Origin: an uncultured Lachnospiraceae bacterium
GTDB lineage: Bacteria; Bacillota; Clostridia; Lachnospirales; Lachnospiraceae
Direction of reading: 5' to 3'
NCBI GenBank assembly: GCA_946614165.1
Contig: CAMOGQ010000001.1
Coordinates: 52,503 to 116,502 of the forward strand
Length of the DNA: 64,000 bases
The translations under genes and the position numbers were made by a program. Positions 30,003 to 34,497 of this stretch are shown here, one piece after another. The notes beneath the pieces are model-generated. The model saw only the letters and a list, made by a program, of their open reading frames with translations. It was not told the DNA's origin and did not search any database. The first letter of the stretch is position 1; each line of letters opens with the position of its first letter.

Positions 30003-30068
30003 TTGGCAGGGGACCTTCCTTCCGGCGATATCCTCCGGATCGGAGGTCCTTTCTTTTGGGAGAAAGAT

Positions 30069-30809
30069 ATGAACGAGATACTGGCAGGGCAGCTGGCCCT
30101 GGACTACTGCGTGAGTAAAGAAGAGGTGCGGGATAGCAGAAATCACTTTGCCTCCTGGCAGCCCCTGGAGGGCAGAAGACGCTTCCGGGAGGAAGAACCC
30201 TGCTTTCTGAAGATCGCTTCAGTGGGCGGAAAGCTGCTTTTTTGCGGAGAAGCTTCCTTATTAATATGGTGCCGTGAATGGTATGAAAAGACAGGGGCCG
30301 AATGGTTCTTCGAAGCAAAGAACATGAGAGCCCTGAACGACCGCCTTCATGAGGAGGGGTACCGGATCGAAATGGTCCATCCCTTCTTTATCAGCGACAC
30401 GCCATTTAAGGTAAATACGCAGGGATGGGAGATCCGCTGGTATGAGGGAGAGGAGATCGAGGCCTTCCGGGGAGATCCCCGCTTTACCAGCGCCTTCACC
30501 TTTGACCCGGGCGCCCCGGATGTGATCGGGGCAGCGGCCCTGAAGGAGGGCCGGATCCTTGGCATGGCGGGAGCCAGCGCCGACTCTCCTTCCATGTGGC
30601 AGATCGGCATCAACGTGGAAGAGGAGGCAAGAGGACTTGGCATCGGAAGGATGCTGACAGGACTCCTTCGGAATGAGATCTTAAAGAGGGGAAAGCTCCC
30701 CTTCTATGGGACGGCCATGTCCCATATCGGATCTTTGAGGGTGGCCGTGGGAGCAGGCTTTGTGCCCGCCTGGAGCGAGCTGGTCACATCAAAGACGGAC
30801 CATGAATGA
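30069..30809 (+). CDS. GNAT-family N-acetyltransferase
   Basis: IGINVEEEARGLGIGRMLTGLLRNEIL acetyl-CoA-binding motif; ATG 30069 preferred. Confidence 0.75.
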   Translation: MNEILAGQLALDYCVSKEEVRDSRNHFASWQPLEGRRRFREEEPCFLKIASVGGKLLFCGEASLLIWCREWYEKTGAEWFFEAKNMRALNDRLHEEGYRIEMVHPFFISDTPFKVNTQGWEIRWYEGEEIEAFRGDPRFTSAFTFDPGAPDVIGAAALKEGRILGMAGASADSPSMWQIGINVEEEARGLGIGRMLTGLLRNEILKRGKLPFYGTAMSHIGSLRVAVGAGFVPAWSELVTSKTDHE

Positions 30810-30821
30810 TCTGTAAAGAGC

Positions 30822-30869
30822 AAAGGATCCTGTCTGTTTCCGTGAGGGAAGCGGGCAGGATCCTTTTTT
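30822..30869. terminator. Terminator between convergent GNAT gene and histidine kinase gene
   Basis: AAAGGATCCTGTCTG...CGGGCAGGATCCTTTTTT. Confidence 0.75.
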
Positions 30870-30898
30870 CGTCTTATGGCCGGGGTGATTCAAAGGGA

Positions 30899-31798
30899 CT
30901 ATGACAGGGAAGGGAAGGTGAGAGTGATATACAGGCGTTTTTCCTTATACCGGGCACTGATCCTTCCTCCCATACGCTCTGTCAGGGCTTTTGCTATGGA
31001 CAGGCCAAGGCCTGTGGAGTCCCGGCCGGAGGATACGGTGTAGAAACGGTCGAAGAGCCTGCCGGCCGACACAGGATCCAGATCGGGTGCACGGTTGGAA
31101 AAGGTGATGGATCCCTCCCCTGTCATGACGACGGAAAAATCTCCGTCGGAATACCGGAGCGCATTGGCAATGATGTTGGAGAAGATCCGGCTGACGGATT
31201 CCCTGTCCAGATCTCTCCAGACCGGTCCGTCCGGCAGCTGGATCCGGGGCTCGATCCCCTTTTCCAGGATCAGGTCGTAGAAGGAGACCAGGCTCTCTTC
31301 CAGGGCCCCTTTCAGATCCATTCTTTCCGGGGAGAGAGGCCTCACGTCTGCAGCCAGACTGTAATCCATGAGTTCCTCCATCAGATTCTTCATGGCCTCC
31401 GCCCGGCCCCGGATCATGGAAAGATAGCGCTCTGCATCCGGACCCGTTTCTTCTCTGTCCAGCAGATCCAGATATCCGAAGATGGCCGTAAGGGGAGTCC
31501 GAAGATCGTGGGAGATGCCGGTGACAGCCTCCTTCAGATTTCTGTCCCCTGCCTGGAAGCGCCGGCGCTGGTCCCGGAGAATGCGAAGTTCCTGGTTGAT
31601 ATGGGAGGCCAGCTTCAGAACATAGGGATCCCGGGAGGAAACGCAGACCAGGGTATTGGTATCTGTCGCCAGTATGTCGTGGAAGTCCTTTCCGATCTCT
31701 TTGAGGGACCTGTGCAGGATCCGGATCCGGACCAGAAGCAGGCAGACCAGAAGAAACAGAAAAAGGCAGGCAGCCAGGGACAGATACAGCAGTTTCAT
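30899..31798 (-). CDS. Sensor histidine kinase (HisKA/HATPase)
   Basis: GISHDLRTPLTAIFGYLDLL H-box, IFSNIIANALRYS N-box, STGLGLSIAKALTERMGG G-box; start at 31798 avoids overlap with the permease gene. Confidence 0.92.
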   Translation of the reverse strand: MKLLYLSLAACLFLFLLVCLLLVRIRILHRSLKEIGKDFHDILATDTNTLVCVSSRDPYVLKLASHINQELRILRDQRRRFQAGDRNLKEAVTGISHDLRTPLTAIFGYLDLLDREETGPDAERYLSMIRGRAEAMKNLMEELMDYSLAADVRPLSPERMDLKGALEESLVSFYDLILEKGIEPRIQLPDGPVWRDLDRESVSRIFSNIIANALRYSDGDFSVVMTGEGSITFSNRAPDLDPVSAGRLFDRFYTVSSGRDSTGLGLSIAKALTERMGGRISARYKEKRLYITLTFPSLS

Positions 31799-31824
31799 CT
31801 TTACCTCCTGTATTGCATCTTTGT

Positions 31825-32601
31825 CTAATTGATATTTTTCCTTTCGAACAGCCTGCAGCACAGGACGGTCAGAGCTGCAGTCAGCAGGAGATTGAGAAGC
31901 AGGACCCGGATGGGATGGGGAACTTCCCAGGTAGAGAGCTGGGCGGCCTGGCCGCAGGGGTTGAGATCATGGAGGATTCCGTAGACCATCCTTCGGATGC
32001 CGCCCACATATTTGGGATTCAGGACCCCGTCCTTATAGCGGTCCTGGACCAGGAGGGAGTTGGTATGCATGGCAAGGAAGAGCATTCCGAAGGCGGAAGC
32101 CATGCAGACCACCACTGCTCTTGTTTTTTCTCCAAGGAGCAGGGTGACGGCGGCAAAGAGAGCGCCGCAGGTAAGGCTCATGCTGACTCCCAGAAGATAG
32201 AAGCGGACCAGGTCAGACGCCATTACATTGTTTTCAAAGAAAAAGCGCCCGATGGCAGCGGTAAAAACAGTGGCCGCCGTATAGAGGGCGGCGCAGGCGG
32301 TGCAGCTGACAAAGATCTGGGAAAGTACATAGCTGCTGCGGCGCCTGACGGCCAGGAGCTTCATGCGTATAAAGCCGCCGCTGAAATCATCTCCCGCAAA
32401 TACGCTGACCAGGGCAGCAGCCGCCACCCCGTACATGCTCATGGGAAGGAAGATCACTCTGCTTAAGGGAACGCTGTAGTCCATGGCCGTGGCCTGCATG
32501 ACCATAAAGGCTGCGCTCAGGGCCAGCATGCCCGCAAGTGAAAGGCCGAAGGCCCTGCTTTTTACCAGTCTTACCAGGTCGGCTCTCATCAGTCTGATCA
32601 T
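31825..32601 (-). CDS. ABC-2 type transporter permease
   Basis: 258 aa, about six hydrophobic segments; overlaps the ATPase stop codon by 4 bp. Confidence 0.8.
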   Translation of the reverse strand: MIRLMRADLVRLVKSRAFGLSLAGMLALSAAFMVMQATAMDYSVPLSRVIFLPMSMYGVAAAALVSVFAGDDFSGGFIRMKLLAVRRRSSYVLSQIFVSCTACAALYTAATVFTAAIGRFFFENNVMASDLVRFYLLGVSMSLTCGALFAAVTLLLGEKTRAVVVCMASAFGMLFLAMHTNSLLVQDRYKDGVLNPKYVGGIRRMVYGILHDLNPCGQAAQLSTWEVPHPIRVLLLNLLLTAALTVLCCRLFERKNIN

Positions 32602-33509
32602 GATGCATCACCCCCTACCAGCGACAGGAAGTAGCCTTCCAGGTTCTGGTCCTTTTCCTGCATGGAAAGGACCTGACAGTTTTCCGCGGAAAGAGCAAGG
32701 ACCAGGTCTGTGGGACTGACCCGGGCATAGACGTCTGCTTCTGTATCGGAGAGGATCTTATAATCCAGACCCATGCCGTCCAGCAGGCGGGAGAGGACAG
32801 AAATGCTGGTGACTTCCAGGTGCAGGCACTTGCGGCACTCTGCTTCCAGCTCCCCGGCACTGAGTTCTCTGACCATGCGGCCGTGGTCAATGATGCCGTA
32901 ATGGGTGGCCAGGCGGGAGAGTTCGTCCAGGATGTGGCTGGAGATCAGGAATGTGACCTGTCTTTCCCGGTTGAGCTTCAGGATCAGTTCCCTGATCTCG
33001 ACGATCCCCTGGGGGTCCAGACCGTTTGCGGGTTCGTCCAGGACCAGAAAATCCGGGTCCCCCGCCAGGGCCACCGCTATGCCCAGGCGCTGTTTCATGC
33101 CCAGGGAGAAGTGCCTGACCTTTTTCCTGCCGGTGTCCGAAAGGCCCACCAGCTGCAGAAGCTCCCGGATCCCTTCATAGGAGGGGAGCCCCAGGATCAG
33201 GTACTGCTGCCTCAGATTTTCTTCTGCCGTCATGTCCATGTACAGGGCGGGTGTTTCCACCACCGCGCCAATCCTTCGCCTGGCATCCGCCATGTCCCTG
33301 CTGCCGCTTTGAACGCCGAAAAGGGTAAAGCTTCCTGAGGAAGGCTCCTGCAGTCCGCAGAGCAGGCGGATCAGGGTGGTCTTTCCCGCTCCGTTTCTTC
33401 CGACAAATCCGTAAATGGCGCCTCCCTGCACATGCATGGATAGTCCGTCCAGGGCCAGAAAATTCCCGTATCTTTTGGTCAGGCCTTCTGTCTGAAAAAC
33501 AAAGTCCAT
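32598..33509 (-). CDS. ABC transporter ATP-binding protein (lantibiotic-immunity/bacitracin-like class)
   Basis: GRNGAGKTTLIRLL Walker A, HFSLGMKQRLGIAVAL signature, FLVLDEPANGLDPQG Walker B. Confidence 0.95.
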   Translation of the reverse strand: MDFVFQTEGLTKRYGNFLALDGLSMHVQGGAIYGFVGRNGAGKTTLIRLLCGLQEPSSGSFTLFGVQSGSRDMADARRRIGAVVETPALYMDMTAEENLRQQYLILGLPSYEGIRELLQLVGLSDTGRKKVRHFSLGMKQRLGIAVALAGDPDFLVLDEPANGLDPQGIVEIRELILKLNRERQVTFLISSHILDELSRLATHYGIIDHGRMVRELSAGELEAECRKCLHLEVTSISVLSRLLDGMGLDYKILSDTEADVYARVSPTDLVLALSAENCQVLSMQEKDQNLEGYFLSLVGGDAS

Positions 33510-33526
33510 TTGGTTTACCTCCTTAT

Positions 33527-33591
33527 ATCCTGACTATATCTCATAAAGGTCATGAAAGCGGTCAGGATAAAAGTCAGGATTTGGTCAGGAT
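33527..33591 (-). promoter_or_regulatory. Predicted response-regulator operator/promoter region
   Basis: Plus-strand GTCAGGAT at 33561, 33573 and 33584, degenerate GTCATGAA at 33549, inverted ATCCTGAC at 33527; just upstream of the ATPase start. Confidence 0.5.
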
Positions 33592-34256
33592 TCCGGATCC
33601 CGAAGCTTAAAGCCTATGCCCCATACGGTCTCGATATAGTCCATGCCGCCGGCATCCTGGAGTTTCTTTCGCAGGTTGCTGATATGCTGCTTCAAGGATC
33701 TTTCCGTACAGTCCGGCGTATCGGCTCCGATCCTGTCCAGAAGAACGCTTCTGGCGATGACCCTTTCCGGGTTTTCCATCAGGAGCTTTAGTATGGCATA
33801 CTCCGTTCTGGTCAGCCGGACCTCCTTTCCGCATACGGACAGGCTCCTGGACAGGAGATCTATGGACAGATCGCCTGCAGTCAGGAAAGCGGCTTCCTTT
33901 AGAGAATCCCTTCTGCGCAGCTGCACGGCGATACGGGCCAGAAGCTCCCCCGTATCAAAGGGCTTGGTCATGTAGTCGGCGGCCCCGCCCAGAAGAAGAG
34001 CAATCTTGTCCTTTACGTCAGCCCTTGCGCTCAGAACGATGACCGGGATCCCTTTTATATAGGAAAGAACTTCTTCCCCGGACATGCCCGGCAGCATCAG
34101 ATCCAGAAGGACCAGATCGGGCTTCTTTTCTTTCAGAAGGTAGAGGGCCTCCGTACCCGAATAGGCGCGCAGGACGGAAAAGCCCTCTTTTGCAAGCACT
34201 TCCGAGAGCATGTCTCCTATATACTGATCGTCGTCTATAATGGCTATTGTTTTCAT
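33585..34256 (-). CDS. OmpR/PhoB-family response regulator
   Basis: IAIIDDDQYIGDML, LVLLDLMLPGMSG receiver; winged-helix VRLTRTEYAILKLLMENPERVI; start at 34256. Confidence 0.94.
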   Translation of the reverse strand: MKTIAIIDDDQYIGDMLSEVLAKEGFSVLRAYSGTEALYLLKEKKPDLVLLDLMLPGMSGEEVLSYIKGIPVIVLSARADVKDKIALLLGGAADYMTKPFDTGELLARIAVQLRRRDSLKEAAFLTAGDLSIDLLSRSLSVCGKEVRLTRTEYAILKLLMENPERVIARSVLLDRIGADTPDCTERSLKQHISNLRKKLQDAGGMDYIETVWGIGFKLRDPES

Positions 34257-34497
34257 AAACTGCTTCCTTTCGGGCTTAGCATAGCAATTCTTCAGGGCTC
34301 TTTCAAGATGACGGCTTCCCCCGGCAGAGGTAGAAAGCAAAGTATTTTCTAAAAATGGTAGAGAAACAGGAGCCGATGTGATAAAGTAATTTCTGTCAAA
34401 TCCGGTCCCGCTTCGAAAGAATGAACCGGAGGGCCAAAAGATATATCAACCGGGGAATCCCGTGTAAAATACAGGAAACAAGGAGACACTTAGAAAA

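Follow-up and report, generated by a model that had tools for sequence, protein, structure and literature searches.

A conserved four-box direct-repeat array predicted to control an internal promoter in a clostridial response regulator-ABC transporter-histidine kinase operon

Results and discussion

A tandem array of four heptamers lies between the response regulator (RR) gene and the ABC transporter ATPase gene of a minus-strand operon in the window, i.e., the whole 64-kb stretch of DNA analysed here. We propose, with a probability of roughly 90%, that the repeats act as the operator in an internal promoter that depends on an activator. The RR of the operon is predicted to bind there and to drive the ABC ATPase, permease and histidine kinase (HK) genes. 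That the ABC-HK part of the operon has an internal promoter under RR control had been put forward in an earlier, sequence-only reading of this DNA; this proposal is now supported by the conservation of the array, its absence from loci that lack an orthologous RR and the covariation of its bases with the recognition helix of the regulator.

Genes of the operon

All four genes are encoded on the minus strand. The RR gene (33,585-34,256) is followed by the gene for the ABC transporter ATPase (32,598-33,509), with which the internal transcription unit would begin, by an ABC-2 type permease gene assigned through its family match to PF13346 (31,825-32,601), and finally by the HK gene, with HisKA and HATPase_c domains (30,899-31,861). 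The true start of the latter may be an ATG near 31,798, past the permease stop. The RR combines a receiver (PF00072) with a C-terminal winged-helix Trans_reg_C domain (PF00486), both far above cut-off, can be aligned over its full length to MtrA and DrrD, and is thus an OmpR/PhoB-family response regulator; its recognition helix reads RSLKQHISNLRKKL. It does not qualify as a PhoB equivalog (TIGR02154, 183 bits vs a cut-off of 296). The best NCBIfam match of the ATPase is the lantibiotic-protection subfamily TIGR03740, with a score (214 bits) under the cut-off of 309.75 that leaves it outside the lantibiotic-protection (TIGR03740/LanFEG) group. The 258-residue permease matches ABC2_membrane_5 (PF13346) only, so that the operon is not a BceAB-type module with its large FtsX-type permease. 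The sequence TTGAAA-17-TATGCT at 34,278-34,306 (minus strand) is a candidate for a constitutive promoter serving the RR gene; it is devoid of boxes, and such sites are no commoner than chance.

The repeats in the window

On the plus strand, GTCAGGAT occurs at 33,561-33,568, 33,573-33,580 and 33,584-33,591, accompanied by GTCATGAA at 33,549 and by an inverted copy, ATCCTGAC, at 33,527-33,534. The three exact copies had already been listed in the sequence-only reading. The window holds nine occurrences of GTCAGGAT (3.0 expected), a number reached by none of 100 shuffles, and the triple is the only 8-mer triple of such density within it; no 8-mer triple within 31 bp appeared in 60 random first-order-Markov sequences of 64 kb. 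The genome-wide scan that the same reading had asked for recovered the exact pair GTCAGGAT-N3-GTCAGGAT once in the 3.78-Mb genome of the bacterium, at the present locus. The full four-box array is likewise found there only once, with no further full array that would point to a wider regulon, and it is mostly single per genome among the relatives as well.

The functional orientation of the repeats is that of the minus strand, i.e., the strand of the operon. Read in this direction, the putative operator consists of three TCCTGAC boxes and one TCATGAC box, spaced by 11, 12 and 12 bp, each of which matches both the template and the profile described below and is conserved in relatives. Box 1 (TCCTGAC, 33,584-33,590) contains the TGA stop codon of the RR gene (33,585-33,587), in agreement with the earlier observation that one copy overlaps this stop. 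Box 2 (TCCTGAC, 33,573-33,579) follows at 11 bp, and box 3 (TCCTGAC, 33,561-33,567) and the promoter-proximal box 4 (TCATGAC, 33,549-33,555) each at 12 bp from the preceding box. The copy at 33,549 had been regarded as degenerate; this was mistaken, as it is a full fourth box that relatives share. The description of the spacing as one helical turn is correct as an approximation, the actual distances of 11, 12 and 12 bp being not exactly one turn.

Exactly 10 bp past box 4 there is a -10 hexamer, TATAGT (33,533-33,538, minus strand). Its position places the predicted transcription start at the A at 33,526, inside the range of 33,515-33,545 that had been anticipated, with a leader of about 17 nt. 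The sequence of the leader includes a ribosome-binding site, AAGGAGG, for the ABC ATPase gene (33,518-33,524). No -35 hexamer is present 16-18 bp from the -10 hexamer of the window, where the best candidate matches in one of six positions.

The nominal -35 position (33,556-33,561) covers the last part of box 3 together with the spacer before box 4. Family-wide, the bases at this position are well conserved yet not -35-like, the commonest being CCGCTT, CCGGTT and CCGTTT.

The inverted copy at 33,527, listed with the repeats in the sequence-only reading, was also considered as an operator half-site. The aligned position in the relatives falls in the variable start-site region, and the copy, which does not belong to the conserved element, is a window-specific coincidence over the predicted start.

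Conservation of the array

The permease had no match in 61 other genomes of the same genus, and orthologs were therefore sought at the family level. Searching with the permease recovered relatives from 71 of the family's 397 genomes and from eight named contigs. Most of them share the gene order of the window, with a gap of about 75-135 bp between the RR and ABC genes. The aligned gaps display a common layout: four TCTTNAC heptamers whose starts lie 11, 12 and 12 bp apart, then 10 bp, a TANNNT hexamer and a ribosome-binding site. Of the 29 RR-adjacent relatives first fetched, 28 have this template at the ABC start, and the window site fits it with no shift.

A profile was built from 28 related loci, with the window excluded. 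It assigns 30.0 bits to the window site, compared with 5.1 bits for the next best site in the 64-kb window and 11.4 bits for the best one in 4 Mb of random sequence. The boxes of the window have diverged further than those of most sites, for which scores of 40-60 bits are typical, and box 4 carries an A where a T is otherwise nearly invariant. In thirty-odd later loci that did not contribute to the profile, the array occupies the same position, apart from a few exceptions; one of these loci (L143) has it in a shifted form. Among 58 distinct sites, TANNNT occurs at the exact offset in 56, and in 56 the hexamer at 16-18 bp has at most two of six matches to a -35. The array extends to other families of the class, again between the RR and ABC genes. 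Boxes upstream of the RR gene were seen in none of the 22 loci read there. Absence from orthologous loci had been named beforehand as an observation that would count against a regulatory role; when examined, the array turned out to be conserved across dozens of genera. As head-to-tail repeats at about 10-12 bp that are conserved together with a regulator, the boxes are, by comparative sequence evidence, a predicted direct-repeat operator of the OmpR/PhoB type.

One genome (G393) contains a second perfect four-box site (L147, 1,545-1,665), with a -10 of TAGGAT, upstream of genes for PAP2-superfamily and VTT-domain proteins, which suggests a second, envelope-related target.

Correspondence between the boxes and the regulator

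The presence of the boxes tracks the orthologous RR and not its paralogs. In two genomes the RR gene is displaced, either to a site just downstream of the permease gene (G330, L132) or to about 2 kb upstream, behind a MerR-like gene (G356, L139); in both, the boxes are still found at the ABC gene and the nearby RR is 59-62% identical. Six loci have no boxes (G261, G185 and the genomes of L062, L063, L064 and L067), and there the closest RR reaches only 36-41% identity. A distant paralog set (L151; ABC 42%, RR 42%) likewise has no site of the four-box type.

Examination of the recognition helix provides a further tie. The residue x in the motif SLK-x-H shares the most mutual information with base 5, in all four boxes (z of 12.7, 10.2, 8.9 and 8.3), and its values with base 4 of boxes 2 and 1 are also high (z of 9.3 and 6.4). 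RSLKQ is paired with G at base 5 in 28 of 28 boxes, M at residue x with T in 40 of 40, and SSLKT with A in 12 of 12; V goes with A or T, and SSLKQ, where the arginine is absent, with T or G. Loci from outside the set follow the same pattern: L196, which belongs to another taxonomic family, combines RSLKQ with GGGG, L132 and L156 combine M with TTTT, and L191 and L195 combine V with T or A. When mapped on the ABC tree, RSLKQ and all-G change three times apiece and agree in every contrast, of which one is on well-supported branches. The residue-base covariation is thus strong by count, but as a test corrected for the tree it is weak, owing to the few phylogenetically independent contrasts. In most RSLKQ systems, the box TC[CT]TGAC also encodes the last serine of the RR and its TGA stop.

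Proposed mechanism and comparison with known systems

Phosphorylated PhoB and PhoP bind tandem repeats head to tail and contact region 4 of sigma. The Pho box stops about 10 bp short of the -10 and takes the place of the -35, and PhoP sites in B. subtilis often comprise four repeats. The array described here shares this class-II (PhoB-type) geometry, with its operator 10 bp from a TANNNT -10 in 56 of 58 sites and no TTGACA-like hexamer, the lack of which is expected for an activator-dependent promoter. Since the geometry is the same as that of PhoB and PhoP, we infer activation of the ABC-permease-HK genes.

According to the proposed mechanism, the RR would be made from its own upstream promoter and then phosphorylated. 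The phosphorylated form would bind the four head-to-tail heptamers (TCCTGAC-type) as tandem dimers, take the place of the missing -35 and recruit RNA polymerase to the -10 at 33,533-33,538. The internal promoter would drive the ABC ATPase, permease and HK genes and not the RR gene itself, such that a signal would amplify the transporter and the sensor while the level of the regulator would be fixed by its own promoter. Binding and its dependence on phosphorylation are predicted in this scheme, and the preference for activation over repression is read solely from the geometry. The signal is probably a cell-envelope-active peptide or antibiotic: envelope stress is indicated by the lantibiotic-protection match of the ATPase, itself below cut-off, and by the additional site before the PAP2 and VTT genes in G393.

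PHO boxes consist of direct 11-bp units, seven bases of each being conserved, to which an OmpR/PhoB-type RR binds in tandem (PMC4415409). Like the Pho boxes of PhoB in E. coli and PhoP in B. subtilis, the units of the present array are arranged head to tail, measure about 11 bp and have seven conserved bases, and their geometry is class-II-like. It differs from them in its heptamer (TCTTNAC, compared to CTGTCAT in E. coli), in a fixed 11/12/12 spacing, of which 12 bp exceeds the classical 11-bp Pho unit, and in its operon-internal position, with an ABC-2 transporter and a sensor as its target and no link to phosphate. Among clostridia, the OmpR-family regulator RR_1586 of C. difficile binds a direct, not inverted, repeat of an 11-bp unit with a TTAAG core (PMC6222199). 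A clostridial OmpR-family RR with a direct-repeat site is thus common to both cases, binding being predicted in ours; RR_1586 sites have two units, hundreds of predicted targets and partly repressive action, whereas the array comprises four units with, in essence, a single target in each genome. In the CprABC/CprRK, NsrFP/NsrRK and LanFEG systems, an OmpR-family RR and a sensor kinase control an ABC transporter for peptide protection, and the operator of NsrR is itself a prediction (PMC4773095). The present operon resembles these lantibiotic-resistance modules in associating an OmpR-family RR and a sensor kinase with an ABC transporter whose ATPase best matches the lantibiotic-protection subfamily, but the ATPase is below the family cut-off and there is a single permease gene.

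Alternative explanations

The same boxes could in principle serve repression, the RR covering the promoter and blocking RNA polymerase until phosphorylation frees it, as has been reported at some RR_1586 sites in C. difficile. Some OmpR-family regulators indeed leave DNA on phosphorylation (PMC6222199), but here the last box stops exactly 10 bp short of the -10, at the place of the -35 and with no -35 hexamer, which is the class-II activator geometry of PhoB; we consider repression improbable. Repressor sites usually lie over the -10 or the start. Still less probable is an RNA element, in which ATCCTGAC copies would pair with the inverted GTCAGGAT ahead of the ribosome-binding site, forming a hairpin in read-through mRNA that controls RR-ABC translation or processing. 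The window segment does fold better than its shuffles (z of -2.9 and -2.5), and the inverted copy adjoins the ribosome-binding site. Across the loci, by contrast, the median fold z is -0.4, and only two of 55 (the window and L132) contain, downstream of the -10, an inverted copy of the full heptamer. What is conserved, moreover, are direct and not inverted repeats, at a fixed spacing and with a -10, and the 5' arms of the hairpin would fall upstream of the start of the internal-promoter transcript. The hairpin with the inverted copy, strong as it is in the window, is no family trait and is largely refuted by this non-conservation.

The many RR paralogs in the genome of the bacterium make it conceivable that a different OmpR-family regulator, encoded elsewhere, uses the boxes. 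We regard this as highly improbable, given that the boxes track the orthologous RR, not paralogs, and that their bases covary with the helix of their own RR. Functionless repeats, arising by chance or from low complexity, might have been suspected while a single sequence was at hand; conservation across dozens of genera, together with the profile and random-sequence statistics, refutes this, leaving it a negligible chance.

Significance

The open-licence literature yielded no direct description of the motif, nor of Lachnospiraceae lantibiotic two-component systems with direct repeats. The type of switch is known; the operator family, its motif and the code that matches protein to DNA are apparently undescribed. 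Beyond the window, we consider it reasonably probable that the clostridial RR-ABC-permease-HK family shares one such four-box operator, that the base-5 code (RSLKQ to G, M to T, SSLKT to A, V to A or T) evolved repeatedly, and that RSLKQ systems carry the RR stop inside box 1. If so, the family would represent a natural record of RR-operator coevolution. It also provides natural variants for studying how one recognition-helix residue of an OmpR-type regulator selects one base. The motif is transferable and predicts the target promoter in a large, apparently uncharacterised family of two-component ABC systems from gut and rumen, and the circuit would place the transporter and sensor within the feedback loop and the regulator outside it.

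Genomic setting of the operon

A GNAT gene and the RR-ABC-permease-HK operon sit between rsgA and ychF (window 30,003-34,497). In a genome of the same genus (G057) whose ychF is 98% identical, the rsgA-ychF gap measures about 315 bp and contains neither the GNAT gene nor the operon; this empty site implies that the block was gained or lost as a unit. In another relative of the same genus (L197, 1,190-1,877; G003, contig 12), the locus is occupied by the GNAT gene and the kinase, the kinase gene being split by about 690 bp that, judged by eye, seem to encode an IS200/IS605-type transposase; this contig stops short of the permease. In the window, the GNAT and kinase genes are convergent, and a long GC-rich hairpin with a T-run between them (30,822-30,866) is likely to be a two-way terminator.
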